64,000 bases of DNA from Zygnema cylindricum (lineage: Eukaryota > Streptophyta > Zygnematophyceae > Zygnematales > Zygnemataceae). This document shows positions 2,778-57,489 of this stretch, piece by piece. A model generated the notes under the pieces. The model saw only the letters and a list, made by a program, of their open reading frames with translations. It did no database searches and was not told the origin of the DNA. Numbering within the stretch: the stretch's first letter is position 1; each line of letters starts with the position of its first letter. Where the stretch lies: positions 732,696-796,695 of the forward strand of contig JBBHKE010002640.1 of assembly GCA_037447655.1 (NCBI GenBank), read 5' to 3'. Position numbers and translations under genes: made by a program.

Positions 2778-2797
2778 CTAAATATTAAGGGGAGTAA

Positions 2798-12285: not shown

Positions 12286-13336
12286 TGTAGAAATAAATAG
12301 TTCCTTTTTATGTATTTTCTAGGTCTAAATTAAAATACAGAAAGAAGCCGAGGCAGTCTACCTCTCCAACTCCCACACTTGTCGCAGTCACTGGGAAGTT
12401 CGAGTGGAAGCTAGAGCCATGGCTGCCTATGCTATCCAGAGATTTACGAAAAATAGATTAGTTTATTTACCGGTTTATTTACTAAAAGGATTGGTGTCAG
12501 AACCAGGATTTAATCCTGGTACCTACGGAATGATAGATAGCCGGTAGTCGGTAGTCATAACCGTTAAGTCTAAATCCAACGATACATAGTATAGGGTTTG
12601 AAATTTATTTAAATATAATTACGTTAGATAAATCATTTAACTACAACTGTGTACGGGATACATAGATCCAATTATGTAAAAGTACAGATTAAAGGTACGG
12701 ACAAGGAACAAGTACCGCGCATTTGTTTCGATAGCGAAACGAATACCGCGCAGGTATTTATTACGGCTACGATTAAATATGCATTTAATCGGACGGCCGG
12801 AATGAATGCCGAGATCGCGGAGGAAGATTTCGGCGGTTTGTGGTCATCACCACACCGGATGACACATGGCAAAAAGACATTGGATCACGGCATCTCCGGG
12901 GATTAAGGGAGCGAATCTGGATATACCACGTGTCGACATTTTGGACATGTCGTACACTATTCGTACAGAAAGTACACCGGCAGCTGTACTTTTTCTGTAC
13001 GGAGGAGTAATATGATTGGTCCGCACATTAGTAGACAGAGTTTGTGAGAGAGATAGGCTTTAGGAAAAATTGGTAGATAGGACCCTCTCTCCTAGAGAGC
13101 TTCTGTACAAAAGGTCAACTTTGACCCTCCATAACTTACTGCTCAGGGGAGCAAATTCAGAGATTCTTTTTGCTATCGACTCAAAGGAGTCTTCCCTTCA
13201 CAGGGGTAAAGGTGGTTAAATTTTTTGTTTGCCAGGGTGGGAGTAATTCTTGCCGAAACTCAAAGGGGTCAGGGTTATCCTAGAGGCTTCTTGGAAGCTG
13301 TCCACTCTGAGGACTTATGGAGGTCTCAGAGTTTCA
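12286..13336 (+). repeat. 5' LTR of element A2
   Basis: It starts TGTAGAAATAAATAG and ends GAGTTTCA. Structural modules: T-arm-like hairpin CCAGGATTTAATCCTGG (12503-12519), GTAC-rich hairpin (12962-13001), GACTCAAAGGAGTC hairpin (13178-13191). The gag ATG is at 13317, twenty bases before the LTR end. Confidence 0.9.
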
Positions 13337-14458
13337 GGTAATGGGCCCACCCTCTATGGTACCATCTTTAATGGGACTGGATTCATATACTGGGAAAGTA
13401 TGATGACACACGCTCTATGCGAGAAAAGTTTTTGGGGGATAGTGAGTGGACGAGTGGGGTGTCCATCAAGTCTTGGAATCCCTCCAGGGTTTGAAAGAAG
13501 CGGATTCACAAAGAAAGCAGGTCCATCTTCAACGGAGGAGACAAAGGCAGGAGAGGTGGTGGACAAAGGAGAGGAGAAAGAGACAACCACACCAATAGCA
13601 ACTGGTTCAGCATTCATGTCACCTATTCCGAGGAACGAGGAGAATGATACTGAAACCTGGGACTTCAACAATATGGTGGAAAATCACTTCATCCTCCGCC
13701 ATCTTACTCAAGGACTTGCATGTCCTGATTTGCAGGTAGAAAGGGCATCCGATCTGTGGATGGCTCTCATAGAGATGTACCGAAGTGGTACGATTCAACA
13801 ACAACAGTTGGCTGATCAGAAAGTTAAGGAATATGTATACAAAGGGGGGAAGATGTTGGATTTTTGCAATGAGCTTGCTACACTCTTCATGGAGCTAGAG
13901 AGTGTGGGAAAAGATTTTAGTGAAAAAGAAAAGGTTAACTGTTTACTGATGAAGTTACCTGATGAGTTCGAGAACATAGTCAACCGTGTGCAGGACTTGC
14001 CGGACTCAAGGTGGATATGGAACTCAGTGGTAGGGATGATTCTTGTTAGGGAGAATACGATTGAGATCCAAAGGGGAGGAAAGAGTGGGCAAGCCTTGGC
14101 AGCTGGGACCGATTGGAGGAACAAGGATTCCCGAAGACCGGTCGAAAACTATGGGGGGAGGGAGCAAAAAAATCAGACTGACGAGTTCGGACCAAGGGCT
14201 CCTAAAGGTTTATGTCATTTTTGTAAGAAACCGGGGCACTATATGGCGGGGTGCACTAAGCTAACCGAGCTTCGGTTAAAGGAGGGGCAAAGCGGTGGAA
14301 CCCCGAGAGGAAAGAAAAAGGCCCTTGTGACACAGGTGCATGAGGCAGAATCCGAGGATGAGGACGATGAGCTCTTATTGGATGAGGGAGTTGGAGGCGA
14401 AAAACGAGGTCGAAATTCCACGAAGGTTGAAATGTGCTTATGGTGGATTGAAAGGTGA
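13317..14458 (+). pseudogene. Element A2 Gag
   Basis: Gag forms the virus-like particle and packages element RNA. The start is taken at ATG 13317 inside the LTR because the first codons (MEVSEF) read across the LTR end into VMGPPS, as in the other families. A one-base deletion about 30 bases after the primer-binding site, seen by comparison with element D, shifts the frame. The rest is open to 14458. Conserved parts are the N-terminal FNGTGFIYWESMM, a helical region ending in EIQRGGKS, and the zinc knuckle CHFCKKPGHYMAGC (CX2CX4HX4C), followed by an acidic stretch ESEDEDDELLLDEG. Copia Gag is normally fused to protease, but here the frame ends before it. Confidence 0.85.
13337..13351 (+). promoter_or_regulatory. 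Primer-binding site of element A2, internal tRNA-iMet type
   Basis: GGTAATGGGCCCACC directly after the LTR, 14 of 15 bases complementary to the plant initiator tRNA-Met anticodon arm. Confidence 0.8.
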
Positions 14459-20089: not shown

Positions 20090-20102
20090 TGGTATCAAAG
20101 CT
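20090..20102 (+). promoter_or_regulatory. Conventional tRNA-iMet primer-binding site
   Basis: TGGTATCAAAGC differs by one base from the common plant retrotransposon primer site TGGTATCAGAGC, complementary to the 3' end of initiator tRNA-Met. It lies 2 bp after a CA dinucleotide that could end an LTR. It marks the gypsy-type element and contrasts with the internal tRNA site used by the copia elements here. Confidence 0.7.
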
Positions 20103-21306: not shown

Positions 21307-22332
21307 TGTCAGAGGAAATTAAAGTTTCTAGAGTATTTTCTAGTTTAAATATGTTAGTATAAAATAAAGAAAAGGACGCGGCCACACTTCCTCTTCTCTC
21401 AGCCTGTACTCTACCTATAGTCACTTCCAAACAATAGAAGGTTTTGGTCCATAGGCAGCCTTAACAAAGGCAGTTGGTTTTAAGTAGGTTACTAAAAATA
21501 TACACGGCGGATCGAGATTTGATCCGACTCTGGTTCGTCAAGTTGAGGATAGCGGTCAGCTTTATCCTATAAGACTAGGACCAATGCTAAGTGATAGAGT
21601 ATGTGATAGATATATATATATTTATGGAGGATCAAATCCATTTAACTAAAACTGTATACGGCATGCATAGATACAGTTTTATGAAAGTACAAAGTACGAT
21701 TCTATTTTGAAACGGATACCACGCATTTTGTTTCGGCAATGAAACAAATGTTGCGCAAGTATTTATAACGGCTAAGATTGCGTCTCGCTGCAAATCCAAC
21801 GGCGCACATCATCGTTGAAATCCCGGAGTGGTCACTTTGGCGTTTTGTGACATGGCATGACCTGGAGCCACGTGGAGAGATGACATTCGGTCATGGGAAT
21901 TCCGAAGAATGAACGGACGAGTGAAAAGCAGACACATGTCCGCTTAATAGCCTTGTCGTACATAGGCCGTACAAAAGGTACACCGGTAGTAGTAATTTTT
22001 GGTACGGAACACTAATCTGATTGGTCCGTACTTCAGTGGATAAAAGTTATTAGAGGGAATCATGACTTAGAAAATTTTGGTAGGTAGTCACCTCTCCCTT
22101 TGAGAGTTTGTACAAATTGGCATTTTTCACAGCCTCATAACTTATCGGTTGGTTGGCCGTTTTCAGTGACTCTTTTTGCTACGGACTCACGGGAGTCCAC
22201 GCTGCATAGTGAAGGAGTCAAATTGTCATTTTGCCTTCATGGACAGCAATGGTTGTGGCTTCAAGTGGGTTAGTTAAATACTATCTAGAGGCTTCCTGTA
22301 TTCTGTGGTCCAATGGAGGACACAAAATTGCA
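21307..22332 (+). repeat. 5' LTR of element D
   Basis: It begins near TGTCAGAGGAAATTAAAG and ends AAATTGCA. It carries the T-arm-like hairpin (21508-21526), the GTAC-rich hairpin (21967-22007) and the GACTCACGGGAGTC hairpin (22184-22197). The gag ATG is at 22313, inside the LTR. Confidence 0.85.
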
Positions 22333-23300
22333 CGTTATGGGCCCACCCTCTAGGGTGCCCACCTTCAATGGATCTGGGTTCATTTATTGGGAAGCCATGA
22401 TGATGGGAGCTTTGTGCGAAAAACGATACTGGGGTATCGTTTGTCGATAAGTGAAACGTCCACCTTCGGGAACTCCACCAGGATTTGGAGGAGTAAGGTT
22501 TCCTACAGCAACGGCTGCCTTAGCGGAGGAGGCAAATGATGGGGACAGATGTGTGTCTGAAAAAGAGAAAGGGAAGTAGACACCCCTCACTCCTATTGCC
22601 ACTGTCCCAGAATTGGCGACCGTGATAACCGCGGAGTACGATACTCAATTGTGGGAGGATGTGAACATGGTTGCCAATAACTTCATTCTGAGGCACCTCA
22701 CTCAAGCTTTGGCCACTCCTCATCTTCACATTTACAAGGTGGAGGAGTTGTGGGTGAGTTTGGTGGAGATTTATAGGGCTAGAACTATTCAGGAGCTCTA
22801 GTTGGCTGAGCAAAAGATAGGGAGTTACACTTACAAAGGAGAAAAGATGATAGATTACTGTAATGATCTTTCTTGTTTCTATATAGAGATGGAAAGTGCC
22901 AAATGGACAGGTACAATGAAAATGAAAGTTAACACCCTTATCATGAAGTTACCAGATGAGAACAAGAACATAGTGTACCGAGTACAGGAAATGGCTGATA
23001 GTTCATGGAAATGGAACACAGTGGTCAAGATGATACTTGTGCAGGAAAACACAATGGAGATTAGGAGAGGAGGAAAGAGCATTCAAGCTCTAGCAGCAGG
23101 AGAGGACTGATGGGGGAAGGACCCGTAGAAACCGTACAAAGGGGAAAGAGATCATTCTGGAGGACCGAGGCCCCCAAAGGGTATTTTTCATTTTTGCAAA
23201 AAGTCGGGAAACTTCATCGTAGACTGTGTGAAGCTGTAGGAGCTGAGGCTCCAAAAGAACCGTGGAGGGGGTTCTTCCGGATGGAAGAAAAAGGCACTTG
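22313..23300 (+). pseudogene. Element D Gag
   Basis: Begins in the LTR (MEDTKL, then HVMGPPSRVPTFNGSGF across the primer site). Stops or frame changes lie at 22450, 22578, 22799 and 23108. Recognisable parts are FIYWEAMMMG, the helical core VNTLIMKLPDENKNIVYRVQ and the zinc knuckle region near 23190-23225, read in another frame as HFCKKSGNFIVDC. Confidence 0.85.
22333..22347 (+). promoter_or_regulatory. Primer-binding site of element D, internal tRNA-iMet type
   Basis: CGTTATGGGCCCACC directly after the LTR, 14 of 15 bases complementary to the plant initiator tRNA-Met anticodon arm. Confidence 0.8.
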
Positions 23301-29849: not shown

Positions 29850-30594
29850 TGTTGTCTTTTTTTTTTGGAAAGCTTTCAGTCTCAGAGCACTGCAGCTGCT
29901 TTACAGACAAAGCAGTGCAGATGCTATACAGCAGAGCAACGCAGCAGCAGAGCTGACAGAGCAGCGCAGCTGCTATATAGCAGAGCAGCGCAGCAGCACA
30001 GCAGCGAAGCTGCAACACAGACAGGACAACGCAACCACGATTATATTTGATATAGTCCGTACGGACAACGCAGCCTCTGATATTCTTAAAGTGATTCTGT
30101 ACAGGATAGAGCAAATGCGATAGATACGATTCTAGTCAACGTAGTGGGTAACTCAGTGGTAGCTTAGTGATAGCTCAGTGGTAGCTTAGTGATAGCTCAG
30201 TGGTAGCTTGACAGATTAGTGGTAGCTTGGTGGTTTGATGTACCTCTCAAGTACACTGGTGTTGCCAGTTCAACAGAATTATAAGACTTAGGACTCAGAA
30301 CATATTATGTATCCAGACTTCCAAGTAGTAAAACTGCAGACAGTTTTTGGGAAACTTTTGAGTATTAAAACTTGAGTGTTGTCTGGTCAATTATGCTGAA
30401 ACTTTGGGAGTTATCACTGTTTATGCTACTCTATATTCTGATAGAGTTTTGTGAGGTTTGGATGCTTGTATAAGAGTTGGTAGCACTTAAGAACAGTTGT
30501 TTGGATGGATTCTTGATAGCTTTTGAGAGTGTATCATGTCTACTTCTACTATTACTGTTGCTCCTCCACCTGCACTAGTGGTTGTAGAACAACA
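29850..30594 (+). repeat. 5' LTR of element E
   Basis: It starts TGTTGTC plus a T run and ends GTAGAACAACA. Two internal simple repeats stand out: GCAGC-rich DNA at 29885-30020, and 22-bp copies of TAGCTCAGTGGTAGCTTAGT (plus GA) at about 30150-30238. The gag ATG is at 30536, so 59 bases of coding sequence lie in the LTR. Confidence 0.88.
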
Positions 30595-33000
30595 GGTTAT
30601 GGGCCTGTCATCAAGAATTCCCATCTTTTCCGGGGATAAGTATGTTTACTGGGCGGATATGGTGGAGACACATTTTGAGAATGTCAATCTTTTAGATATG
30701 TTGGATGGTTCGCTGGATGAATCTGATCCGTCATGGTCTAAGAAAAATACGCAATCTCGTTCTATTCTGGAATTTTGTATATCTGAAGACTTAGCTATGT
30801 GACGGATAAAAATGAAAAAAGCAATTGATATCTGGAAATCACTTAAAAGTGATTATGAAAAGGCCAATGTCCGAAAGAGCTTCTAATGGCTGGAAAAATT
30901 TGGGACTATAAGTATACTGGCGGTACAATGGCTGAATATTCTAACAAATTTCGTATCCTTGTAGATGCACATGCTTGTGCAGGTGGGGTGTTTCCTCCTT
31001 TTCAACAGGCAGCATTGCTCATGAGGGGTCTCCCTCGTAGTATGAAAGGAGCATCTGACATGCTCAAACAAAAAGATAAATCTAGCTGGACTTTACAGTT
31101 AGCTATCAATATTTTACTAAAAGAGGAAGCTACATCTAATATTCTCAATGTTGAGCAAGTACAGGCTTTTAATTCAGAATTTGAGAAAAAGGGACAATTT
31201 AATCAGCAGAGGAATCAGTTTCATCAGTTCAGACAGTTTAATCAAGGTGGAAATAGACAATCCAACAATGCATGCTTTTATTGTAGTGAGAGAGGTCATG
31301 GATACAAATTCTGTCCTAAACTTAAAAAAGCTAACGATACAGGTTTATACAGGCCGGGATGGCAACAAAGCCAGTTTTACAAAGGCTTCACGGGGCCTAC
31401 ACCTCGTGGAAATGCACTGTTTTCGGCTTCTTCGTCTCTCCAAGACGAGACTTTGACGGTTTCTACGGAGGTCGATACGGATCTATTCGCTATGGCGGCT
31501 GCAATGGAGGGCGCGAAGGACCCCGGATGGATAATGGATACAGGAGCATCAGCCCACATGTGCTGGAACAAGGCCATCTTCAAAAATATGAAATCAACGC
31601 CGGAGAAAAATATTTATTATGCTTGTGGAATGAGTGTCCAAACTCGTGCTGTGGGTGATGTGTCCTTACTAGTTGATGTAGAAGGAAAAATAATTGAAAG
31701 GACTCTTCACAATGTCTTATTTGTGTCTGACTTTAAGAAAAATCTGTTTTCTACGTCGTTGGTAGAGAGCAAAGGCTTTGAGGTTAATTTGAAAAATGGT
31801 CGGCAGGTTGTTAGCAAAAATGGCAAGGTTGCGGTTACATGTACTAGAGATAGTAACAAGATTTATCGCATGGATGTGGCTAATACCAAGGAGAATGATG
31901 TTTTGTACTCCGGTGTTTTGCACTCAGATGAGTTGTGGCATAAAAGATTAGGCCATGTTAATTATGATAGTTTGAGGAAAATGGTCATTGCTGGAAAAAT
32001 AGAGGGTGTATCAATCACAGATGGGCCGGTCAAAACTTGCGATGGTTGCGCTTTAGGCAAAATCCACAGATTGCCATTTCCTAAGGAGTTTGAGCATCGG
32101 TCAACGAAACTTTTACAACAAATTCATTCGGATGTCTTTGGTCCGGCGAAGGTTCCATCTGCCGGAGGGATGAAATATATGGTCACCTTCACAGATGATT
32201 TCTCCAGGTTTACAAAAGTTTACTTCATGAAGAAGAAGAGTGAAGTGTTTGGTCACTTCAAACATTATAAAACATGGGCTGAAAAACTTCATAATTCATC
32301 TATTTTGCAGCTCAGATCAGACAATGGTGGTGAATATACATCGAAGGAATTTGAAACCTTTTTACTCTAGGAAGTCATTAGTCATCTATTGACTACTCCA
32401 TATTCACCGGAACAAAATGGGGTGTCGGAGAGACTGAATAGAACTCTCACGGAGAGCTCTAGGTCAATGCTCGCAGATAAAAATGTGGATCCGAAATTCT
32501 GGGCTGAGGCTCTAAATTGTGCAGTTTATATTAAGAATAGGATAGGATCAAGATCGGTAGAAACTACTCCTTACGAGATATGGACAGGTAGCAAACCAGA
32601 TGTTAGCCATTTCAAGGTCTTTGGTAGTCAATGCTTTATATTGGATACGTCTACAGATAGATGGAAAATGGAACCGAAAGGATTACCGGGTATTCTGTTA
32701 GGATATGATGATCACTCAAAAGGTTATAGAGTCTTTGTGTTTGAAAGGCAGAAAATAGTTGTAGCTAGAAACATCATTGTTAAAGATGAACTAGACTCCA
32801 TAGAATTATTTCAAATGACAGAGCAGCAAAAGCAACAAAAAATACAGGAGTATGTCATCTTAGATTACATGCAGGAAATTGTCCAGCAGATTCCACAAAC
32901 TCCGGTAATAACTCCGGAGTTAGACTCTCTCCAAGTTCCTCACCAACTTCGGGTCCAGACAGACCATCAGCGCAATCAGGAAGACACGGATCGGAACTAG
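30536..33000 (+). pseudogene. Element E Gag, protease and integrase
   Basis: Gag starts in the LTR (MSTSTITVAPPPALVVVEQQ) and continues as VMGLSSRIPIFSGDKYVYW. A stop lies at 30800 and a frame change near 30880. From 30886 a long open stretch holds the zinc knuckle CFYCSERGHGYKFC, the protease site IMDTGASAHMCWN, the integrase zinc region (ELWHKRLGHVNYDSL, CDGCALGK) and core (HSDVFGPAKV, RSDNGGEYTS). A stop at 32368 precedes the Glu motif EQNGVSERLN. The C-terminal part (SHFKVFGSQCF) ends at 33000. A short repeat CAATCAGCG occurs in the linker at about 32965-33060. Confidence 0.9.
30595..30609 (+). promoter_or_regulatory. Primer-binding site of element E, internal tRNA-iMet type
   Basis: GGTTATGGGCCTGTC directly after the LTR. 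The first 11 bases match the complement of the initiator tRNA-Met anticodon loop and stem exactly. Confidence 0.75.
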
Positions 33001-34894: not shown

Positions 34895-35660
34895 TATTGT
34901 CTTTTTGGAAAGCTTTCAGTCTCACAGCAGCGCAGCTGCTTTACAGACAAAGCAGCGCAACTGCTATACAACAGAGCAACGCAGCTGCTATACAGCACAG
35001 GAGCTGCTATACAGCAGAGCAGCGCAGCAGCAGAGCAGCGCAGCAGCGAAGCTGCAACACAGACAGGACAAGGCAACCACGATTATATTTGATATGGTCC
35101 GTACAGACAACGCAACGTCTGATATTCTTAATGTGATTCTGTACAGGATAGAGCAACTGCGATAGATACGATTCTAGTCAACTTAGTGGGAACTTAGTGG
35201 TAACTTAGTGGGTAGCTCAGTGGTAGCTCAATGGTAGCTTAGTGTAGCTCAGTGGTAGCTCAGTGGTAGCTAGTGGTAGCTTAGTATTAGCTTGGCAGCT
35301 TGACGTACCTCTCAGGTACACTGGTATTGCCGGTATAACACTAGTATAAGACTTAGGACTCAGAACACATGATGTATCCAGACTTCCAAGTAGTAAAACT
35401 GCAGACAGTTTTTGAAAAACTTTTGAGTATTATATCTTGAGTGTTGTCCGGTCAATTGTGTTATAACTTTGGGAGTTATTAGTGTTTACGGTACTCTGTA
35501 TTCTGATAGAGTTTTGTGAGGTTTGGATGCTTGTATAAGAATTGGTGAGCACTTAAGGACAGCTGTTTGGTAGGATTCTTGATAGCTTCTGAGAGTGTAT
35601 CATGTCTACTTCTACTACTAATGCTGCTCCTCCACCTGCACCAGTGGTTGTAGAACAACA
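34895..35660 (+). repeat. 3' LTR of element E
   Basis: It starts TATTGTCTTTTTGG (first G mutated to A compared with the 5' copy) and ends TAGAACAACA. It has the GCAGC-rich segment at 34925-35060 and the GCTCAGTGGTAGC repeats at about 35210-35290. The Gag start codons (MSTSTTNAAPPPAPVVVEQQ) sit at its end and run into unrelated sequence at 35661. Confidence 0.88.
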
Positions 35661-36720: not shown

Positions 36721-37590
36721 TGTTGTTTTTCAGAAAGTTTTAGTCCTCTCTATGCCTCAGCTGTGAGGGAGAGAGAGTTGTTCAGGACTTAAGTTATTTT
36801 TGGTTGAGTTCGTTTCAGCACTTACCAAAATTAGTGTGACAGTGAAGTTGGGAGTTCACGGTTCATTCACACTTGGGACACGCGTCGTCACTTGAGAGAA
36901 ATGCGTGAGTATGTCCTCCGTGGACGTACGGAAATTCGGCAGGACCACGGGAATTCGTGAAGTCAATTCTACGGTCCCAAATCCTCTAATCGGACGGTTG
37001 ACAGCCGGCGCCAACAAATACTGACGAGGCGTGACTAGATCACTATCGGCGAGACTGGATCACTATCACTTTACGTTGTCTGAACTTCGGTGTAAATATT
37101 TGGTAGAACAGAATTTTGTATGTAGTGAATTAGTTGTTTAGTGTTGAGAATGTGGTTTATGACATACCTTTAGTACACAGGTATACTCACAGTATTTGTT
37201 GTGTTAGAATGTTAGATGTACGGCTGGAATGCCTCCGTACAGCTTAGTGTAGTTTCGGTGTATAGAAGTAGGACTTAGTGAATTTGATTCATTAGGAACA
37301 AATGATATGAAAACTGTACACTTAGTTTTATGTAATTTCATTTCTTCATATCTCACAGATCTGTGAGCAGAATTCACTGAAATTTTGTGTGTGCGTTCCT
37401 TTGTATGTTATCTACACTGTGGTAAATTTTCAGAACCCTAAAAAACCCGTTTTTCTGAAAGTTATAGTCTGTCAAAGTTGTTGTTGAGCCATCGGTATTT
37501 GTGGAAGCTTCCTCTTTTGATTTGTTATACGATGACTACTGCTGCATCTTCTTCTTCATCTTCAGTGCCGGCAGTTGTCTCAGAACAACA
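36721..37590 (+). repeat. 5' LTR of element F
   Basis: TGTTGTTTTTCAG to TCAGAACAACA, 870 bp. The gag ATG at 37532 leaves 59 coding bases inside the LTR. Confidence 0.95.
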
Positions 37591-38400
37591 GGTCACGGGC
37601 CCGCCTTCACGAATTCCGGTCTTTGATGGACGGGAATATCTGTATTGGGCAGATTTGGTTAAGTCTTACTTCAAGCAAGTGGAACTTATTGATGTGTTAA
37701 ATGGATCACTGGCAGAATCTGATGCCAGCTTTGATCAGAAAAATGACCAGGCTTTGCATTTAGTAAAAGCTTATGATATCAAAAGAATTGCATAAGACAT
37801 ATATTAATGTTACAAAGGCATCAGAATTGTGGGATGCATTGAAATCTTCTTATGTTAAAGCTAGTGACCAGCATGAGATTATAACTGCTGGTCAGATCTA
37901 TGAGTATAAGTACACAGGTGATAGCATGGTGGAATACACTAATCGGTTTCGAATGTTACTGTCAGAAAATGCATGTTTTGGGGGGACTTTCTCCCCTTAT
38001 CATCAGGCCATGATTCTCCTAAAGGGGCTTCCTAATGAATATAAAGGAGCCTCAGATGAAATGAAAAAATTGTCTAAACCTCTTTGGAATTTGCAAACAG
38101 CTATAGAGTTTATCTTGGCAGAAGAGGCTACTCAGACAGTTTTAGGATTTGGAAAACAAGCTGTAGCATTTACGGCTCAGTTTCAGAGAGAAAGTAGATA
38201 TCAAGGGAATCAGTTTAATCCTCGGTTTGAGAAATGTGTTTATTGCTATACTGATGGTCACTCCTTCAGAGCTTGTCCTTTGTATATAAAAGCTCTTGAA
38301 ACAGGTACCTTTCGGAAAGGATGGAGACACCGCGGACCTCCCATTTCCGAAAAACCTCCGAATAAAATTGTTGCATTTTCGCGGAGGATACGGAATTGAA
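37532..38400 (+). pseudogene. Element F Gag
   Basis: Gag starts in the LTR with a Ser-rich run (MTTAASSSSSSVPAVVSEQQ). It crosses the LTR end into VTGPPSRIPVFDGREYLYW, and a frame change comes at about 37785. An upstream in-frame ATG at 37478 exists, but 37532 matches the start in element E. The second part holds the Gag core (YEYKYTGDSMVEYTNRF, GLPNEYKGASDEM) and the zinc knuckle CVYCYTDGHSFRAC. A TGA at 38397 ends the frame. Confidence 0.88.
37591..37605 (+). promoter_or_regulatory. Primer-binding site of element F, internal tRNA-iMet type
   Basis: GGTCACGGGCCCGCC directly after the LTR. It matches 12 of 15 bases of GGTTATGGGCCCACC, the complement of the plant initiator tRNA-Met anticodon arm. 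All three differences are transitions. Confidence 0.65.
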
Positions 38401-40155
38401 GAAGAAAACAACCGAGGAAACGACACCTGATGTGCTCAGTTTTCCAAAAACTGATGACAAAGAGTTCTTCGCTCTTGCCAAACTCGACATGATGGAAGGG
38501 AAAAAGGACCTCGGATGGATAATGGATTCGGAAGCTCTTCACACATGTGCTGGAACAAGTCTTGGTTTAACGAGATGTCTTCTATTCCTTTACGTCAGAT
38601 CTTTTATGCTTATGGCTATGCCGTTGAATCAAATGCAAAAGGAAACATAGATCTGGATTGTGTGATAGATGGACAGGTTGTTAAGAGAACTTTGTATGAT
38701 GTCTTGTATGTTCCAAAGTTTAAGAAAAATCTGTTTTCTACGTCTGTAGCTGAAAGCAAAGGCTTTGAGGTTCTCCAAAAAAATGGCAAGAAAATAGTGA
38801 GCAAGAATAGAAGAGTAGCTCTAGTAGGAACTAGAGGCCCAAACTTTTTGTACCGCATGGACCTGGCTAATAAAATTGATTTTGCGTACTCCAGTGTCCT
38901 ATGTGATAATGTTTTGTGGCATAAAAGACTTGGTCATGTGCATCATGAGAGACTTACTAAGATGATAAAGCATGACATGATAGAGGGAGTCAAGCTTGGT
39001 CAACAAGAGTCTCATGTGTGTGATGGTTGTGCTCTCGGAAAGCTTCACAAGCTTCCCATATCACAAGTTTCTGATCACCGAGCCACAGATGTTCTTGGTA
39101 TTATTCACTCTGATGTTTTCGGCCCTTCTAAAGTTCCCTCTCTGGGTGGCAGCCGCTTCTTTGTCACCTTTACAGACGATTACTCCCGGTATAGTCGCAT
39201 ATACTTTATGAAGGAGAAGAGAGAAGTCTTCACTCACTTTAAGCACTACAAAATCTGGGCGGAGAAACTTCACGGCAAATCTATTCTTGCTTTGCGGACG
39301 GATAATGGTGGAGAGTATGTATCTCATGCTTTTGCTGGTTTTTTGAAAGAAAATGGAATCTCTCGTGAATTTACTGTTCCGTACACACCACAACAAAATG
39401 GTGTTGCCGAGAGACTTAATCGGACTTTGACTGAATGTGTTCGATCTATGATGGCCGATAAAGAGGTGGATCCAAAGTTTTGGGGGGAAGCTTTTCATTG
39501 TGCTTCCTACATCAGAAATAGAGTGGAAACCCAGGCTGTTAGGGGTAAGACACCTTATGAAGTTTGGACAGGCAAAAAGCCAAATGCTAGTCATTTTAGA
39601 GTTTTTGGTAGCAAATGTTTTATCTTGGATAATCTTCCTAATTGGAAGCTTAGTCCAAAATCTATACCTAGCGTCTTTTTAGGCTATGATGATGAATCTG
39701 CATGTTATAGAGTGTATAATCCTCACAGAGGATGTCTTCAAACAGCCAGGAATATTCAGATTAAAGAAGAAAGTCAATCTGATAACGTTTTTAGCATAGA
39801 TGCAGCTGAAAGGAAAGAGAAAATACAGAGTATATCATTCTTGAGCAGGTACCTTTTACTCCATCCTCTTCTACTTCTTCTACCTCTCTCCCAAATGCCT
39901 CTGGGCCGTCTAATACTCCTTCTGGAGCTGCTCCTTCTGTCGATGCTCCTCCGAATACACGCCTTTTGCGGCAATCCAGGGAACCAACCGTTCCCGCGTC
40001 AGATTTTCCGGGGGGAAGTAGGCAAAGTAGCCGCCTTCGAGGCGACCGAGTTGAGAGTGCTTTTTCTGCAAGCACAGGGGAGCCGCTTACTATTCATGAA
40101 GCTTTTTCCGTTCCTCAAAAGGATCATTGGATCTCAGCTGCAAATGAAGAGATAA
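38397..40155 (+). pseudogene. Element F protease and integrase
   Basis: The protease active site is disrupted: after WIMDS, in GGATTCGGAAGC, one base is missing at about 38530 and the frame shifts inside DSG. From 38515 the frame is open through the rest of protease and all of integrase. The zinc region is VLWHKRLGHVHHERL and CDGCALGK. The core is HSDVFGPSKV, RTDNGGEYVS and QQNGVAERLN, so the DDE triad is complete. The C-terminal part (SHFRVFGSKCF) is followed by a frame change near 39840, so the linker reads in another frame up to FPGGSRQSSRL (about 40005). Confidence 0.9.
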
Positions 40156-41657
40156 AGTCAATTATGGAAGCCCAAACTTCGGAACTTGTGGAGCTCCCAC
40201 CGAACAGGAAAGCTATCGGTTGTAAGTGGGTCTTCAAATTAAAATTGAATCCTGATAATACAATTGAGAGATATAAAGCTAGACTGGTTGCTAAGGGATT
40301 TAGCCAAAAGGAAGGAATTGACTATGAAGAGACCTTCTCTCCTGTGGTTCGCTTTCCTACTGTTAGAGTTTTGCTATCTCTTGCTGCAATAGAGGATATG
40401 GAATTGCATCAGATGGATGTTAAGACAGCTTTCTTGCATGGTGATTTGAGGAAGTAATTTATATGAAGCAACCAGAAAAGTATGTAGAAAAAAGGGAAAG
40501 AAAATCTGGTCTGTAAACTGTTGAAGTCCCTTTATGGTCTTAAACAGGCTCCGAGGCAATGGAACCTGAAATTTGATGAGTTTTTAACCAATCTTGGCTT
40601 TACCAGGATCAGTTCAGATCACTCAGTCTATGTAATGCAAGGTGATGATAGAGTGATTTATGTGGCAGTTTATGTAGATGATTTGCTAGTGATTAGCAAA
40701 TCCATCAATGAGATTAATAAAATAAAATCAGCTTTGAATTCCCAGTTTGAAATGAAAGACTTGGGTGAGGCTAAGTATATTCTAGGAATTCAAGTAGAAA
40801 GAGACAGGAAACAGAAAATTATTTATTTAACTCAAAAGGAAGCAATCAAGAACATGTTAGAAAAGTTTGGCATGTTAGACGCAAAGGGGAGTGCCACTCC
40901 TATGGAATTCAGGCAGAAATTGGAGGGCAAGGAAACGGATGGTGGTGTTTTGGTTGATGATTTCTTAGATTCAGGGGAGGCAGATTCTATGTCCTCCATT
41001 CCTAACAGGCAGATTGTCGGAAGCCTCATTTATTTCATGAACTGTACTCGTCTTGACTTCTCAGCAGCGGTTGGAGCCTTGAGCCGAAGCCTGCAAAATC
41101 CAAGGAAGTCGGACTATGAGGCAGCAAAGAGAGTTCTTCGTTATCTTACAGGACCTCGAAATCTTAGACTCTCTCTCGGTGGAGGGGAAGTCAAAATTCA
41201 TACATGGAGCGATGCGAGCTACGGAGATATGCCCAGCCGACGCTCCACCACTGGATACATTTTGAAGATCGGAAGTGGAACGTGTTGTTGGAGCAGCAAA
41301 CTTCAGAAGGTAACAGCTCAGTCTACCATGGAGGCTGAGTACATGGCTGTCAGCTCGGCAGTTAAGGAGTTACTTTGGGTAAAGTCTCTTCTCCAAGAGC
41401 TTCTTTTTATGCAATCTGGACCACAGATAGTGTGGTGTGACAATCAGGCAGCAATCGCTATTGCATCTAATCTTAGTCAACACTTTAAGAGTAAGCACAT
41501 TGATATCAAGCTACATTTTGTAAGAGAAAAGGTGATGGGAAAAGTCCTGAAATTGAGTTATTTACCGGATGAGCAAATGGTGGCTGATATGATGACGAAA
41601 CCCTTACCTGCTCCCAAATTGAAGTTCTGTAGAGAGGCATGTGGACTGAGAGACTAG
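39966..41657 (+). pseudogene. Element F reverse transcriptase and RNase H
   Basis: Reverse transcriptase runs from CKWVFKLKLNPDNTIERY to TAFLHGDL, then a frame change at about 40447-40500. It resumes at SLYGLKQAPRQW and reaches YVDDLLVISKS (about 40670). RNase H is complete (TWSDASYGD, TMEAEYMA, WCDNQAA, HFKSKHIDI) and ends at CGLRD, 41657. The purine tract TTTAGGGGAG is just before the LTR. Confidence 0.92.
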
Positions 41658-41680: not shown

Positions 41681-42550
41681 TGTTATTTTTAAGAAAGCTT
41701 TAGTCCTCTCTATGCCTCAGCTGTGAGGGAGAGAGAGTTGTTCAGGACTTAAGTTATTTTTGGTTGAGTTCGTTTCAGTACTTACCAAAATTAGTGTGAC
41801 AGTGAAGTTGGGAGTTCACGTTTCATTCACACTTGGGACACGGGTTGTCACTTGAGAGAAATGCGTGAGTATGTCCTCCGTGGACGTACAGAAATTCGGC
41901 AGGACCACGTGAATTCGTGAAGTCAATTCTACGGTCCCAAATCCTCTAATCGGACGGTTGACAGCCGGCGCCAACAAATACTGACGAGGCGTGACTAGAT
42001 CACTATCGGCGAGACTAGATCACTATCACTTTACGTTGTCTGAACTTCGGTGTAAATATTTGGTAGAACAGAATTTTGTATGTAGTGAATTAGTTGTTTA
42101 GTGTTGAGAATGTGGTTTATGACATACCTTCAGTACACAGGTATACTCACAGTATTTGTTGTGTTAGAATGTTAGATGTACGGCTGGAATGCCTCCGTAC
42201 AGCTTAGTGTAGTTTCGGTGTATAGAAGTAGGACTTAGTGAATTTGATTCATTAGGAACAAATGATATGAAAACTGTACACTTAGTTTTATGTAATTTCA
42301 TTTCTTCATATCTCACAGATCTGTGAGCAGAATTCACTGAAATTTTGTGTGTGTGTTCCTTTGTATGTTATCTACACTGTGGTAAATTTTCAGAACCCTA
42401 AAAAACCCGTTTTTCTGAAAGTTATAGTCTGTCAAAGTTGTTGTTCAGCCATCGGTATTTGTGGAAGCTTCCTCTTTTGATTTGTTATACGATGACTACT
42501 GCTGCATCTTCTTCTTCATCTTCAGTGCCAGCAGTTGTCTCAGAACAACA
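41681..42550 (+). repeat. 3' LTR of element F
   Basis: TGTTATTTTTAAG to CAGAACAACA, 870 bp, followed by the duplicated target GTTAG. It ends within the Gag start codons, which then run into non-element sequence. Confidence 0.95.
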
Positions 42551-42554
42551 GTTA

Positions 42555-43338
42555 GGGTGCGTCTCCATGTGTCTAAATAAGGGATTTTTCCTGTCGTTTA
42601 TCTGTAAAACTTAGAGCCATACTGCGTAAGTTTCAATTGTATAGAAAAATATAAAAAATAAAAATTGCATTTTGCGTCATCATCGAATTTAGAATGTACT
42701 AAATGTTGTCGTCTTGTATTTTTCAACCCACGGCCACACCAAAAAACGTCATCTTCAAAATTTTCTTTATAACACAGGGAAGATGTGTTTTAAAACAAAG
42801 TATTTTCAAAAACAAATAGGAACACGTATTCGCACGTGTAAATAATTTCAAACAAATTTCAAACGAATTCAAGCGACGACGAAAGGTTCAGTATTCGTTA
42901 TTTTTTGTCTGTTAGCGTCCATCAAAGTACACAATTTGTTTTTGTTTTGTCGCGTTTGTTCAGTACGGATTTTTCCATTCCACGGGTCTGAAAATTTCGA
43001 TGCCATTTGACGAAATCGTGAGAAATCTCTAACAGCGCCCCATCAAGTCCAACACGTCGCCTCTCTCACGCAGCCTCGAATTCTCCCCTTCACACCACTA
43101 TTTGCGGCGCCTCTCTCACGCAACCTCGCATTCTCTCCTTCACACCACTATTTGGTGTGTCATCGCAAATTGTACATTGTCGACATCCGTCACGGGCATT
43201 GTCGACGTATACAATCGTCACGCCTTTAAGTGACAACTTCGTTTGGTACACATAGGGGCACCCGAAAACCGGGTCCGTCGGATCTGCGCTAAAAAACAAA
43301 GTAAATTCTCTAAGTTTCAAGTACATGGAGACGCACCC
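42555..43338. mobile_element. Non-autonomous TIR transposon, copy 1
   Basis: A 784-bp element with perfect 16-bp terminal inverted repeats GGGTGCGTCTCCATGT and ACATGGAGACGCACCC. TTA precedes the left end, and the right flank is TAG. It has no coding capacity. The inside contains two tandem copies of about 50 bp (CTCTCTCACGCARCCTCG type) at 43060-43163. Two related copies lie at 43361-43560 and 60035-60514. TTA next to the ends is the target preference of PIF/Harbinger elements, so this is a candidate MITE of that group. Confidence 0.85.
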
Positions 43339-43360
43339 TAGTTTTAGTATGAAAAACTTA

Positions 43361-43560
43361 GGATATGTCGCTATGTACTTGTAACTTAGCGAACTTACTT
43401 TGTATTTTAGCGCAGATCCGCCAAACCCGGATTTTAGGTGTCCTTATGTAACTTGTTACTTAAGGGTGTGACGACTGTATACGTCGACAATGCGTGTGAC
43501 GGATGTCCGCTGTACAATTTGTGATGACGCATCAAATTGTTAAAAATTTATGTGGACGCT
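43361..43560. mobile_element. TIR transposon copy 2, partial and inverted
   Basis: It starts GGATATGTCGCTATGT, preceded by TTA, and runs in the opposite orientation to copy 1, so the two form a diverged inverted repeat centred near 43350. Shared blocks include TCTGCGCTAAAA, GCATTGTCGACGTATACA, GACATCCGTCAC and ACAAATTGTACA (given on the copy 1 strand). The far end is not recognisable. Confidence 0.75.
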
Positions 43561-44646: not shown

Positions 44647-45088
44647 AAAGAAGTCATAATCATCTAAAACATTTGCAATTACTTTTGTAAAATTGCACAT
44701 ATGTATGCATAAATAACTGTATATATATGCACACATACATACATACATACATACATACATACACGAATACACACAATATATATATTCATACAAACATACA
44801 TATATATACATACTTAAATGTATTAATATGAATTTGAAACAGAGCACTAGAATATTCTGCTGAAATGTTTCTAAAGAAGTCATAATCATTTAAAACATTT
44901 GAAATTACTTTTGAAAAACTGCACATATGTCTGCATAAATAACTGTATATATATGCACACATACATACATACATACACGAATACACAAAATATGTATATT
45001 CATACAAACATACATATATATATATATACATACTTAAATGTATGAATATGAATTTGAAACAGAGCACTAGAATATTCTGCTGAAATGT
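44647..45088. repeat. Tandem duplication of about 220 bp with ACAT microsatellites
   Basis: The block starting AAAGAAGTCATAATCAT at 44647 recurs at 44873. Each copy has an (ACAT)n run (44732-44762 and 44960-44975), a TATATA run, and ends with AGAGCACTAGAATATTCTGC. That end is also the start of the neighbouring minisatellite unit. Confidence 0.88.
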
Positions 45089-46440
45089 GGGCTGACTTAA
45101 AATATACGGCTAAAATGTGGGTTGAACTTGTATAATTGTGATGAATGGTGGGCTGAACAATGTGGGATGAACTTGTAATATTCTGCTGAAAAGTGGACTG
45201 ACCTAAAATATACTCTTGTAATGTACGCTGACCTAAAATGAACTCTTGTAATGTGGGCTGGCCTAAAATGTACTGCTGAAATATGGGCAGAACTTGTAAT
45301 AAACTGCTGAAATATGGGTTGAACTTGTATTGTGGAGTTACCTAAAATATACCGCTGAAATGTTAGCTGAACTTGTAATATTCTGCTGAAATGTGGGCTG
45401 AACATGTAACTGAATGTGTAATATTCTGCTGAATATGGGCTGAACTTTAAATACTCTGCTGAAATGTGGGTTGAACTTTTAACTGACCTAGAATATTCCG
45501 CTGAAATGTGGGTTGAAGTTGTTATATTCTGCTGAAATGTGGGCTGAACTTCTAATGTGGGTTGACCTAAAATATATTGCTAAAATGTTGGCTGGACTTG
45601 TAATTTTTTGCTGAAATGTGGGCGGAACTTGTAATATAATGCTGAAATGTTGGCCGAAATTGTAATATTCTGCTAATATGTGGGTTGAACTTGTAATGTG
45701 TGGGCCGAAATTGTAATATTCTGCTAATATGTGGGTTGAACTTGTAATGTGTGGGCCAAACTTGTAATATTCTGCTTATATGTGGGTTGAACTTGTAATG
45801 TGGGCTGACCCATAATATACTGCTGAAATGTGGGCTAAACTTTAAATATTCTGCTGAAATGTGGTCTGAACTTGTAATATTCTTTTAAAATGGGGGCTGA
45901 ACATGTAATTGAACCTAGAATATTTTGTTGAAATGTGGGCTAAACCAGTAATATTTTGCTGAAATGTGGGCTAAACCAATAATATTCTGCTAAAATGTGG
46001 GTTGAATTTGAAATATTAAATGTGGGTTGAACATTGTGGGGTGAACTTGTTATATTATGCTGAAATGTGGGTTGAGCTTTAAATATTCTGTTGAAATATG
46101 AGTTGAACTTGTAATATTATGTTGAAATGTGGACTGAACATGTGACTGAACCTAGAATATTATGCTGAAAAGTGGCCTAAACCTAGAATATTATGCTAAA
46201 ATGTGGGTTGAACCTGTAATATTCTGCTGTTCTACTGAACTTGAAATATTATGCTGAAATGTGGGTTAAACTTTTAACTGACCTAGAGTATTTTGCTGAA
46301 ATGTGGGCTGAACTTGAAACTGAACCTAGAATATTCTGCTGAAATGTGGGCTGAACTTGTAACTAACCTAAAAAATACAGCTGAAATGTGGGCTTAACTT
46401 GTAACTGACCTAAAATATACAACTGAAATGTGGGTTGAAC
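45070..46440. repeat. Minisatellite, about 31-bp unit, roughly 40 degenerate copies
   Basis: Degenerate copies of TGTAATATTCTGCTGAAATG plus TGGGCTGAACT fill about 1.37 kb. Some copies carry CTGACCTAAAATATAC variants, giving longer units. The array ends about 55 bp before the first transposase-related coding stretch, so it may be subterminal repeat sequence of that transposon. Confidence 0.88.
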
Positions 46441-50096: not shown

Positions 50097-52121
50097 TCTT
50101 GAAAAGAAAAAAATATTATTTACTTCTTAATTTAGATTCTAGAGTGAAGAGAGAGAGAGAGTCACCATCGCCATAGTCAGAGAGAGTTAGAAAGAAAAAG
50201 ACACACAGCTAGACAGATTGATAGATTGCCAAAATGTTGCCCTCAACCAGAACTAAGGTCTACGAATTATTACATAGACGTACGCCTTAACCATTATGGC
50301 GTTAAAGAAACGATACACATATTGAGTTCGTTATGTATTTAAAGTGTTACGCAAAACGTCACTTTCATTAAAACATACTAAAATTGACGAAACGACATCA
50401 GCAGGACGCGAATCTAACCGTGTAAAATGCATGATCGGAAGGACGTCGTCGCCCCCGCCAAACCCGAATAAATCTTTGGCGGCTTTTGAACATAGCGGCG
50501 CGATGTGCCACGGGGCGCCAAATAATTAGACGCCAGAAACGATAGGAGGAGGAACGATGGCTGCCATGTTGACAAGTGTCAACCAGAAAGCCATGTTGTA
50601 GAATGGCAGTACAAGAAGTACAATTGGCCACTATACCTTCTTGTACTATACACCCTTTTCATTGGCCGAGGGTAGAGTAGTATGTTAAAATATGTGTATT
50701 TTCTAGGTCTTAATTTATTCTACTTTGTCAAATAGGCTGTCTAAGTCATCTATATTTGTCGTAGTCATCAGAAGACAGAGATACCGATGGCTACTTAGGT
50801 AGTCAAGAAGACAGAAAGGAGGAAGGACAGGAGTTATTCTGGGCGGCACCAAAATGTATACGGACAGATCAGGGTTTGATCCTGGTCCGTCGGGTTTGTT
50901 GCCGTACAGATAAAGCCTTTCGCCTTTTCTGCTAAATGTAATGAAGATCGAAAAACGTATAGGGTTTGAAAAGTATTTCAAGTCGTTCACACCGGTATCA
51001 TCCATTTAACGGCGAAACCAAACTACATGTACATAAAAGGAAACCGCACGAAAATAATACGGGGCGCACGAAACAAAAGTCGAAGATATTTGTTTGACGG
51101 TCGAGATTAAAAATTGGAAATATAATCGAACAACTCACATTTCAGCCGGTTGTACGGAATGACAATTTTGGCGTTTTTTGGACGCGTCGACATCAGATGA
51201 CACGTGGCAATATCCTAGAGGATTTCGGGATCTCCAAAACGCGAGATGACAAGTCTAGATGTGACAAATGTCACATTGTGGCTGTGTTGTACAAGGACCG
51301 TACAGAAAGTACTCCGGCACCTGTACTTTCGTGTACCGTACAGTCATATTATTGGTGCTTACCTGACTACTGGGGGGCTTAGAGAGGGGTTTTAGGACTT
51401 ATAATATTTTTGGTAGGTAGCCGCCTCTCCCAAAGAGCATCTAGTATAAAAGGCAAACTTTGGCCAGCCATAACTATCAATTTACTTGACCATTTTAGTG
51501 ATTCTTTTTGCAGCGGACTAAGGGGAGTCTACGCAACACAGGGTTGTAGTCACTCAGAGTTTTTGCCTTCCAGGGTGGCTGCATTTCTAAGGGAAAGTCA
51601 AATTGGGTGAATGTATCCAAAACTCATATTCTAACTTTGCATTCTGTGGTGGAACTGAGCACACAAAAAGTCTTATTTCACTAGGGTGGAGCTATAATGG
51701 GTCTCTGATTATCAAAAGGTCAGTCATTTGGGTTTATATCAACTTGGAGTCGGCACTATCTAGATAAGCTTCTTTTGGATCTGCGATTTTTGTGGGCAAT
51801 GGAGCACACAGAGTTTCATAGTATGTAGTTCTGAGTAGGAGTTAAGGGACTTAGCGTGTTTGAGGCGCCTCCCTCTAAGTGACCTTTTGTATTTATAGGC
51901 CATCTTTGGCCTGCCATAACTTACTACTGAGGGGAGCAAATTCAGTGACTCTTTTTGCGTTTGACTTAGGGGAGTCTTGTCCTCACAAGGGTGAGGGTGG
52001 TCAGAATATTAGTGTGCCTGAGCGGCACTTATTTAGTGGGAAAGTGAAAGGGTCAAATATTATCTTAGAGGCTTTACATAGGTTGCTCATTATGTGGGTT
52101 AATGGAGACCATAGAATTTAA
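50097..52121 (+). repeat. 5' LTR of element H, split by a nested solo LTR
   Basis: Parts 50097-50682 and 51824-52121 match the 3' LTR (56582-57489). It starts TCTTGAAAAG where the 3' copy has TGTTGAAAAG, and ends TTTAA where the 3' copy has TTTCA. The antisense D-arm-like hairpin is at 50284-50300 and the GACTTAGGGGAGTC hairpin at 51963-51976. A TATA-like GTATTTATAGG is near 51888. The gag ATG is at 52102. Confidence 0.9.
50683..51818 (+). repeat. Solo LTR (1136 bp) nested in the 5' LTR of element H
   Basis: It starts TGTTAAAATATG and ends CACAGAGTTTCA, flanked by perfect 5-bp duplications TAGTA (50678-50682 and 51819-51823). It resembles family A LTRs in its modules: T-arm-like hairpin with CGGAC/GTCCG outer stem (50861-50889), GTAC-rich hairpin (51298-51338), motif GGACTTATAATATTTTTGG (51395-51413), TATAAAAGG (near 51453), and GACTAAGGGGAGTC (51516-51529). 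It ends with ATGGAGCACACAGAGTTTCA, a would-be Gag start. Confidence 0.93.
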
Positions 52122-53370
52122 GGTTATGGGCCCACCCTCTAGGGTACCCATATTTAATGGATCTGACTTTTTTATTGGGATATGATGATAGAGGGAGAAC
52201 TTTTTGTGAAGCACCTATGGGGGATAGTGTCCGGGCAAATTTGATGCCCACCTTCACCTAGGTTTGGAGGAACACATTTTTCTGGCACCTCCGTCACAAA
52301 AGTTGTAAAAACATCAGCCACCATCACAAACAATGAAGAGGAACAGGAGGAAATAATCATAGAAGGAGGAAAAAATGAGTTGTTTCTCGAGGGAATCCAT
52401 TATACAAAACGATACCGGCAGCAGCACCACTAGCAATGGTTACAAGGAGTCAACACCACCAGGAATGGTGACAAGAAGTCAGACCGAACAGTCAAAATAT
52501 GAAAATTAGAACTATAAGGACAAAGTGGCTAAACTCTTAATTATAAAAAGTGTAGTGAAGGGTATTGCCATTCCCCTTATGCATGTTAGATCTTCCTCTC
52601 AGATTTGGGTATCACTAGTAAACAAATATAAGAGTGAGTCATTGCAACAGCAACAGTTGGTAGAAAATAAGAGTTCAGCTTATACTTACAATGGAGGAAG
52701 TATGAATGATTATTGGAATGACTTAGGAGTATTATATGGAGAACTAGAGAGCGCATGTAACTCATGGTCTAAAGACAAGGAGTAAGTACACTAATAATGA
52801 AACTACCTGAAGAGTATGAGAATAACATTAATCGATTGCAGGATCAAGGTGATAGCAATTGGAATTTGGATGATATAGTGGGGATGCTTTTAGTGAAAAA
52901 GAGTACCATAGAACTTAGGAGAGGAAGTCCAAGTGATCAAGCATTGGCTGCAGGATCTGATTGGCGAAAGCGTGATGAGGAAAAGGGAAAGGATCCCTAT
53001 TGAAAATTTAGAGGAAAAGGACAAGGAGGTGGCAGATATGATGGACAAGGGAGAGGAGCTCTAGGAGGTGGATTATGTCACTTCTAAAAAAACCGGGACA
53101 TTATATAGCATATTGTGTCAAGCTTGCATATCTCTGACTGAATGATGGTCAAGGTTCCTCAAAAGATGGAGGAAAGAAAAGGGCTTTTCTGACTCAAGTT
53201 CATGACGAGGAAGAAGATGACGTAACTGAACTAGAAGAGGAGCTTGATGAGCTTTTTCTTAAACCAAAAACAACTGAGAAGCATGCAGACATTCTACGGA
53301 GACAAAAGTGTGCTTTCGGAGGTAAGAGGGATCTACCTGAGGATGAGAGGATGGGTAGATCATAGACTCA
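52102..53370 (+). pseudogene. Element H Gag and protease start
   Basis: Gag starts in the LTR (METIEF) and crosses into KVMGPPSRVPIFNGSDF, then breaks at about 52190. Later stretches show the Gag core (QQQQLVENKSSAYTYNGGSM, MKLPEEYENNINRLQDQ, IELRRGSPSDQALAAG) and a damaged zinc knuckle near 53085-53120. Stops lie at 52507, 52783, 53000 and 53085. The region ends with the protease site IIDSGASMHMC read at about 53357. Confidence 0.82.
52122..52136 (+). promoter_or_regulatory. Primer-binding site of element H, internal tRNA-iMet type
   Basis: GGTTATGGGCCCACC directly after the LTR, complementary at all 15 bases to the plant initiator tRNA-Met anticodon arm as I know that tRNA. Confidence 0.85.
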
Positions 53371-56581: not shown

Positions 56582-57489
56582 TGTTGAAAAGAAATAATTA
56601 ATATTCAATTCTTAATTTAGACTCTAGAGTGAAGAGAGAGAGAGAGAGAGAGTCACCATGGCCGCTGCCATAATCAAAAAGAAATAAACACACAGGCAGA
56701 CAGATTGATGGATTGCCAAAATGTTTCCCTAAACCAGATTTGAACTAAGGTCTACAAAGTACTACATAAACGTACGCCTTAACAATTATGGCGTTAACGA
56801 AACGATACATGCAATCAATTCGCTATGTATTTAAAGTGTTACGCAAAACGTCACTTTCATTAAAACATACCAAAATTGACAAAACGACATCTATAGTCAA
56901 ACGGCGCTCGCGGACGCAATTCTAACCGTGTAAAATACACTATCAGACAGACGTCGTCGCCCCCGCCAAACCCGAATAAATCTCTGGCGGATTTCCAACA
57001 TAGCGGCGTGGTGTGCCACCTGGCCCCACATCATTAGATGCCAGAAAGGATGGGAGGAGGAACGATGGTTGCCATGTTGACAAGTGTCAACCAGAAGACC
57101 ATGTTGTACAATGGTCGTTCAAGAAGTACAGTTGGCCACTCTACCTTCTTGTACTATACACCTTTTTGATTGGCCGAGGGTAGAGTATTAAGTAGTTGTG
57201 AGTAGGAGTTAAGGGACTTAGTGTGTTTGAGGCGCCTCTCTCCAGGTTACCTTTTGTATTTATACGCCATCTTTGGCCAGCCATAACTTACTGCTCAGGG
57301 GAGCAAATTCAATGATTCTTTTTGCGTTTGACTCAAAAGAGTCTTATCCTCACAAGGGTGAGTTTGGTCAAAATATTTGTGTGCCTAGGCGGCACTTATT
57401 CAGTGGGAAAGTGAAAGGGTCAAATATTATCCTAGAGGCTTTACAATAGGCTGCTCATTCTGTGGGTTAATGGGGACCACAAAATTTCA
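56582..57489 (+). repeat. 3' LTR of element H
   Basis: TGTTGAAAAGAAATAATT to AAAATTTCA, 908 bp. The antisense tRNA-like module spans 56733-56792, with D-arm-like GCCTTAACAATTATGGC (56776-56792). The GACTCAAAAGAGTC hairpin is at 57330-57343. A 14-base (GA)n run follows the start. Confidence 0.92.

Follow-up and report, generated by a model that had tools for sequence, protein, structure and literature searches.

The five Copia elements of the window, by which we mean the whole 64,000-nucleotide stretch of the Zygnema cylindricum genome that was analysed, are almost certainly Ty1/copia LTR retrotransposons that use half a tRNA as primer (hemivirus type), here a cut initiator tRNA-Met (iMet). 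Read from sequence, the case draws on the position of the primer sites, their abundance, exact complementarity to the host tRNA, constraint acting at the level of the DNA, and a set of tRNA–LTR chimeras that begin at tRNA base 39. In the mechanism that we propose, a nuclease would cut iMet after base 39 of its 72 bases (40 in standard numbering), within the anticodon stem; the enzyme may well belong to the host, RNase P being a plausible candidate. The 5′ half would then pair through its anticodon arm with the 11–15 bases directly behind the 5′ LTR, so that its new 3′ end could prime minus-strand DNA at the LTR edge, and chimeras could arise when plus-strand DNA ran on into the attached tRNA half. 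The mechanism as such is already known, plants included; what stands out here is how clearly and how abundantly it is seen.

Primer sites at the LTR edge and the host tRNA

When the window was scanned for the 15-mer GGTTATGGGCCCACC with up to three mismatches, five sites were found, at 13337 (one mismatch), 22333 (one), 30595 (three), 37591 (three) and 52122 (none), and no further match besides these; shuffled controls gave a mean of 0.62 matches and 0/100 reached five. All five sites begin at the first base past a 5′ LTR (Table 1). The LTR edges were set by comparing the last 25 bases of each 5′ LTR with the end of its 3′ LTR in the same register, and the mismatches over these 25 bases number one in A2, E and F, three in D and four in H. 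The original prediction had placed five such sites directly behind Copia 5′ LTRs, and the mismatch scan, the shuffles and the LTR end register confirm it. Target duplications of 5 bp flank F and H, and four of five bases are kept in A2 (AATTG/ATTTG), while none was seen at the LTR edges of D and E; F is the best preserved of the five.

Table 1. Copia elements of the window: LTRs, primer binding sites, probable Gag start codons and open frames (window coordinates)
Feature	Position	Strand	Remarks
A2 5′ LTR	12286..13336	+	3′ LTR 17686–18747; self-BLAST 92.8%, LTR end register
A2 probable Gag start codon, within LTR	13317..13319	+	inferred from translation; 20 bases before site
A2 primer binding site	13337..13351	+	14/15 match
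D 5′ LTR, eroded 5′ end	21315..22332	+	3′ LTR about 26700–27738; self-BLAST 87.5%, end register
D primer binding site	22333..22347	+	14/15, first base C
E 5′ LTR	29850..30594	+	3′ LTR 34895–35660; self-BLAST 85.5%, end register
E primer binding site	30595..30609	+	12/15; 11-base core perfect
F 5′ LTR	36721..37590	+	3′ LTR 41681–42550; 870 bases, 98.4% identical, TSD GTTAG
F probable Gag start codon, within LTR	37532..37534	+	59 bases before site
F primer binding site, drifted form GGTCACGGGCCCGCC	37591..37605	+	12/15
F open frame: Pol beta-barrel domain, GAG-pre-integrase, integrase core	38515..40155	+	Pfam
F open frame: RVT_2 (Copia reverse transcriptase)	40521..41657	+	Pfam
H 5′ LTR, interrupted by additional DNA	50097..52121	+	3′ LTR 56582–57489; TSD GTTCT
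H probable Gag start codon, within LTR	52102..52104	+	inferred; 20 bases before site
H primer binding site	52122..52136	+	15/15

The ordinary plant primer site, TGGTATCAGAGC, is absent with up to two mismatches from all five LTR boundaries (0/5), as had also been predicted. In the window it matches at this threshold only at 12492 and 20090, and shuffled sequences give more matches than this. The second of these (20090–20101, TGGTATCAAAGC) had been put forward as an ordinary tRNA-Met site in a gypsy fragment; the near match to the ordinary site stands, but the gypsy label could not be confirmed, the open reading frame behind it having no Pfam match. Nor did 20090 show similarity to the 60 Gag-anchored stretches described below. 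For the five elements themselves, the LTR pairs, a Copia-type Gag (Retrotran_gag_2 was detected by Pfam in F and A2) and the order of domains in F, with the rve domain ahead of RVT_2, place them in the Pseudoviridae (Ty1-copia). Among the best 120 of 3,986 matches, the top match to the integrase region of F is an oomycete protein with 41% identity, followed by animal, plant and unnamed proteins; F pol had no match in viral contigs and the F LTR region none in plasmids.

Other repeats lie in the window. Tandem repeats with units of about 40 and 31 bases form long arrays from 3379 to at least 5744 and over 45062–46387. A pol-like end, a polypurine run and a 3′-LTR-like repeat occupy 2304–3420, with an inverted second copy at about 11286–11973. 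A large inverted copy of a Copia internal region (22530–24661 / 27742–29850, 91–93% identical) has one arm that adjoins the end of element D's 3′ LTR, and nested inverted repeats at 43182–43507 (arms of 96 and 73 bases, 80–81% complementary) are possibly a hairpin or a folded-back element.

Across the host assembly (352.8 Mb), the exact 15-mer occurs 5,974 times (3,019 + 2,955), against six (3 + 3) for the reversed pattern, and its first 11 bases, the core, occur 8,815 times (4,499 + 4,316), against 32 (16 + 16). LTR boundaries were sought in 20 exact-site loci of 8 kb, taken from 100 places listed. Four of the 20 have LTR pairs 96.9–99.7% identical that end at the site and are flanked by 5-bp duplications (L011 GTCAT, L016 TCAGC, L018 GCAGC, L024 GTAAA), and L020 and L021 have shorter LTR pairs, also ending at the site. 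The other 14 loci showed no pair of LTRs that ends at the site within the 8 kb, which we count against the half-tRNA reading; in five of them (L009, L010, L012, L013, L027) a repeat of the upstream part extends to the end of the 8-kb stretch. In the A2 family, 20 stretches drawn from 150 scored Gag matches carry the exact 15-mer in 14 cases, one mismatch in five and two mismatches in one.

The 150 scored Gag matches of this family are at least 93% alike to A2; dozens of them share identical scores, many have a frame of 1,454 codons, and the family is a recent burst. The base of the site most often changed is the first, in 4 of the 20 A2-family copies (L134, L143, L147 and L151; three to C, one to A), and element D likewise has C there, so constraint at this position is possibly loose.

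The partner of the site was sought in the host with a 31-base iMet pattern (bases 9–39, up to three mismatches), which gave 18 genome matches (14 + 4), eight of them exact, and none in controls. Eight of the 18 run on as tRNA genes or pseudogenes, and ARAGORN called tRNA-Met in 6 of 10 loci cut out around such matches. The host iMet gene examined has 72 bases, and the 15-mer is the exact complement of its bases 25–39 (standard numbering 26–40), which bears out the original reading of the site as the reverse complement of the iMet anticodon arm. The LTR edge lies at zero spacing to the site, so base 39 would be the last base of the primer. Predicted pairing with the anticodon arm is strongest in H (−31.8 kcal/mol), followed by D (−28.8), A2 (−27.7) and, with equal values, E and F (−23.3), against a mean of −10.0 and a best value of −18.0 kcal/mol for 300 shuffled 15-mers. 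Counts of 8-mers gave no consistent signal of a second, Ty1-like pairing box to the remaining tRNA.

Gag lineages, reading frames and a drifted site

A search for Copia Gag (PF14223) gave 15,356 candidates at first look, and scores were obtained for 150 of them. For 60 of the 150, picked without regard to the primer site, 531 bases around the Gag start were read. One Gag motif, that of the GYGP lineage, is found in 42 of these 60 Gag-anchored stretches; 39 of the 42 have the exact core of the half-tRNA site and three have it with one mismatch, while an ordinary site of the TGGTATCAGAGC type was found in none (0/42). Among the remaining 18, 17 carry the site TGGTATYRRAGC, which is of the ordinary TGGTATCAGAGC type, and none the half-tRNA core. 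The site types in this sample are sorted by Gag motif, which argues that two priming types coexist and that the type follows the Gag lineage. In two of the four GYGP-lineage elements tried for an LTR boundary the site lies at zero spacing, behind LTRs of 394 bases that are 100% identical (C1680; duplication CTCCT, in a CT-rich repeat) and of 468 bases that are 99.8% identical (C1887; duplication TTACC). A homology search with the Gag start of one copy of the GYGP lineage found nothing at an E value of 1e-5.

In both lineages a reading frame passes through the site. In the five window elements it reads VMGPP or variants of this, and an upstream ATG lies within the LTR, 20 bases before the site in A2, D and H and 59 bases before it in E and F. 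In the GYGP lineage, GYGP or a peptide near it is read through the site, in the Gag frame, in 40 of the 42 stretches chosen by Gag motif; in stretches chosen by the first 10 bases of the site, 38 of 41 sites are in the Gag frame and an in-frame ATG lies upstream in 35 of 41, mostly 18 bases before the site. As judged from these frames, Gag appears to start inside the LTR and to run through the primer site, a layout that is that of Ty1 rather than of copia.

It is conceivable, then, that the 15-mer owes its conservation solely to the Gag peptide that it encodes (VMGPPSR), itself conserved, and the presence of VMGPP or its variants through the site in all five window elements, behind an ATG inside the LTR, is what such an account would expect. 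We nevertheless regard it as highly improbable. The DNA that encodes VMGPP in one lineage is read in another frame in the second, as GYGP. In the 42 stretches chosen by Gag motif the codons of the site are fixed (GGT in 41, TAT in 42, GGG in 42), whereas the conserved tyrosine just downstream is TAC in 31 and TAT in 8 (Fisher P 3e-15 for tyrosine at the site vs downstream, a guide only, the sequences being related). The same codon contrast in 16 representatives picked by site gives P 3e-6, although the claim on codons and frame uses only the 42 Gag-motif stretches, sets picked by 10 of the 11 core bases being circular for this purpose. In element E the PP of the peptide is changed to LS, yet the 11-base core is intact, and in a third group a Copia Gag accompanies a different, ordinary site. 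Conservation of Gag had been named from the outset as a possible sole explanation of the match; it fails to explain the site and was rejected as sole cause on the strength of the two frames, the site codons and the lineage split. Against the half-tRNA reading we count that bases 12–15 of the site vary in the GYGP lineage and include kept bases that are not those of the tRNA.

Element F presents a related difficulty, since its family was amplified despite mismatches to iMet, and this too counts against the half-tRNA reading. Its site, GGTCACGGGCCCGCC, has 150 exact genome copies (control 0), and the pairing with iMet, as read from the two sequences, would contain two C·A mismatches and one G·U pair. 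A sample of 20 of 152 F-family Gag matches, read without regard to the site, has the exact F form in five, a form one mismatch off in nine, an eroded site in three and no site in one; the canonical 15-mer is present in one (L125, 83% Gag identity) and an intermediate step in one (L124). At least five members (C89, C249, C777, C900, C1071) combine the exact F site with a 1,428-codon frame. The finding of canonical, intermediate and spread forms indicates that the F site arose by drift away from the canonical 15-mer and was then amplified.

No tRNA gene matching the F site was found by exact 16-mer, and no such variant is present among the 18 iMet-like matches; it is possible that an F-matching tRNA gene is missing from the assembly. 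The primer site of retroviruses is re-copied from the tRNA. The F drift and the non-tRNA bases at positions 12–15 in the GYGP lineage are both evidence against the whole site being routinely renewed from the tRNA in these elements. We tentatively suggest, while thinking it rather doubtful, that F escaped correction of its site in one of two ways: through an edited or unassembled tRNA variant, in which A35 and A37 would be read as G and U28 as C (standard numbering), or through inheritance from RNA alone, in which case half-tRNA elements would take the site solely from their own RNA. Whether half-tRNA elements repair their primer site is a question that can be put to the test with the F subfamily.

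Chimeras of tRNA and LTR

Ten of the 18 iMet-pattern matches depart from the tRNA exactly after base 39. In the orientation of the element they run from an LTR end into the site and on into further tRNA complement. The sequence before the joint was examined by aligning its last 40 bases to known LTR ends and to shuffled sequences. Six loci (L036, L153, L154, L155, L157, L159) have alignment scores of 24–38, where the best shuffled score is 9; L033 (12 vs 8.5 shuffled) and L034 (13 vs 6.5) are weaker, and L156 (8 vs 10.5) and L158 (3 vs 4.5) failed. The alignment showed no recognisable LTR before the joint of L156, and this locus, together with the weak scores of L033 and L034, is counted against the half-tRNA reading. 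By BLAST, L158 matches the window repeat at 2795–3420 over 626 bases, to within two bases of the joint, and that repeat sits after a polypurine run and pol-like sequence, as expected of a 3′ LTR; the sequence joined in L158 is thus probably an LTR end as well.

The tRNA copy extends to base 1 in L033 and L036, to base 8 in L034 and L153 (in L153 with one mismatch) and to base 11–12 in the other six chimeras, the iMet pattern being able to detect only chimeras that reach about base 12, with shorter ones invisible to it. A changed base lies inside the 15-base site of L154, L157 and L158. Beyond the tRNA piece, L153 and L155 continue into inverted LTR sequence, L154 and L158 into a second, direct part of the LTR, and L159 into sense integrase-region sequence; L157 continues into antisense A2-like internal sequence, which is found on its other side too, and nothing clear was seen in L033, L034 and L156. 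This variation between the ten loci was counted against one common mechanism. The most informative locus is L036, which is 91% alike to L024 in the LTR and 95% on the Gag side, with the last 25 LTR bases in common. Where L024 has 22 bases behind the site, L036 has instead 24 bases complementary to the tRNA, ending at base 1, the mature 5′ base of the tRNA, and the element is rejoined at CGAT.

The L154 chimera (G000:C697:22794–22824) and the F-family copy L124 share GGTTACGGGCCCACC, one step towards the F site.

Sequence of the tRNA past the 15-base site is unexpected in element RNA, so the ten loci are best understood, as far as sequence can tell, as products of copying a primer whose last base was 39. 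The genome contains LTR elements as well as tRNA genes, and insertion of elements near tRNA genes is known from other organisms, so the chimeras might instead have come from insertion of elements at base 39 of tRNA-iMet genes, or from DNA recombination between a site and a tRNA gene; the LTR–tRNA unit of L157, which is flanked on both sides by similar A2-like antisense DNA, could be taken in that sense. This is very unlikely in our judgement. Beyond its tRNA stretch, L036 continues with its own Gag side in the proper order, 95% alike to L024, and not with the flank of a tRNA gene; the tRNA copies of L036 and L033 stop at the 5′ base of the mature tRNA and lack the leader that precedes it in the tRNA genes examined; and the inner breakpoints vary (base 1, 8 or 11–12) whereas the joint at base 39 is constant. 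Still less credible, to the point of being nearly excluded, is that the elements prime from another tRNA or prime themselves, with an incidental match to iMet. The failure to find an exact tRNA partner for the F site speaks for such a primer, but the sites have 11–15 bases complementary to iMet in numbers far above the control, and the fossils contain iMet sequence past the site.

Read as copies of a half-tRNA primer, the chimeras would replace what had been deduced from 11–15 bases with a physical record that names the priming tRNA and the point at which it was cut, and the genome offers both thousands of sites and at least six clear LTR-end chimeras that begin at tRNA base 39. With the fossils of this genome, the distance that plus-strand DNA runs into the half-tRNA could be tested base by base. 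They also suggest a computational assay, in which any genome could be scanned for LTR ends with over-long tRNA complement. A search of titles and the openings of abstracts, partial in its coverage, found no report of tRNA–LTR chimeras as evidence of priming.

Relation to known half-tRNA elements

It had been left open by the original prediction whether half-tRNA priming was new for plant elements of this kind. It is not: half-tRNA-Met sites in plant Copia elements were reported in 2019, in the Osser and Bryco lineages and part of Gymco-II (Neumann 2019, REXdb; PMC6317226). In the available part of that survey about 2% of the plant elements have half-tRNA sites and 5-bp target duplications predominate. 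The elements described here resemble these lineages in being Ty1/copia elements with a site behind the 5′ LTR complementary to half of tRNA-Met, a likeness seen in the type of site. The same part of the survey does not give the scale of copies, a Gag frame through the site or tRNA–cDNA fossils, and to that extent half-tRNA priming of plant Copia has previously rested on short site matches. Bianca, another plant Copia, also has a half-tRNA primer, but from a different tRNA, tRNA-Ile, and its pairing needs an edited anticodon base (PMC6317226, available part); by analogy, this is a possible parallel to the drifted F subfamily.

In the ICTV classification Hemivirus is set apart by the use of a short tRNA segment (PMC8515867), and here the site complements tRNA bases 25–39 at zero spacing and the fossils begin at base 39, a correspondence seen at the level of sequence. 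An ordinary full-tRNA-Met Copia is a poor description of these elements, as the TGGTATCAGAGC-type site was found in neither the five window elements nor the 42 GYGP-lineage stretches. As far as the accessible text of these sources goes, Drosophila copia and yeast Ty5 likewise use an iMet cut in the anticodon region (PMC1181622, PMC5371799, PMC10886601, PMC8515867), hemivirus priming starts at the 3′-OH of nucleotide 40 (PMC1181622), the equivalent, in standard numbering, of base 39 in our 72-base host tRNA, and RNase P is named for Ty5 (PMC5371799). The present elements differ in their host and in a Gag that appears to start in the LTR and to cross the site. Copia and Helenus elements of rust fungi have sites in the anticodon-loop region as well, tRNA-iMet included, but in fungal hosts and with several tRNAs, according to the part of that report available (PMC10886601).

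The tRNA and PPR genes of the assembly agree with a host from the green plant lineage, a plant or streptophyte alga. One PPR protein had 32% identity to the best of 120 matches listed, with Spirogloea accessions apparently among them, and a search for the RuBisCO large subunit gave no match. Elsewhere in the assembly, a cluster of many PPR-repeat matches was seen at about 10,500–99,100 of G000:C185, including an open frame of 2,240 codons.
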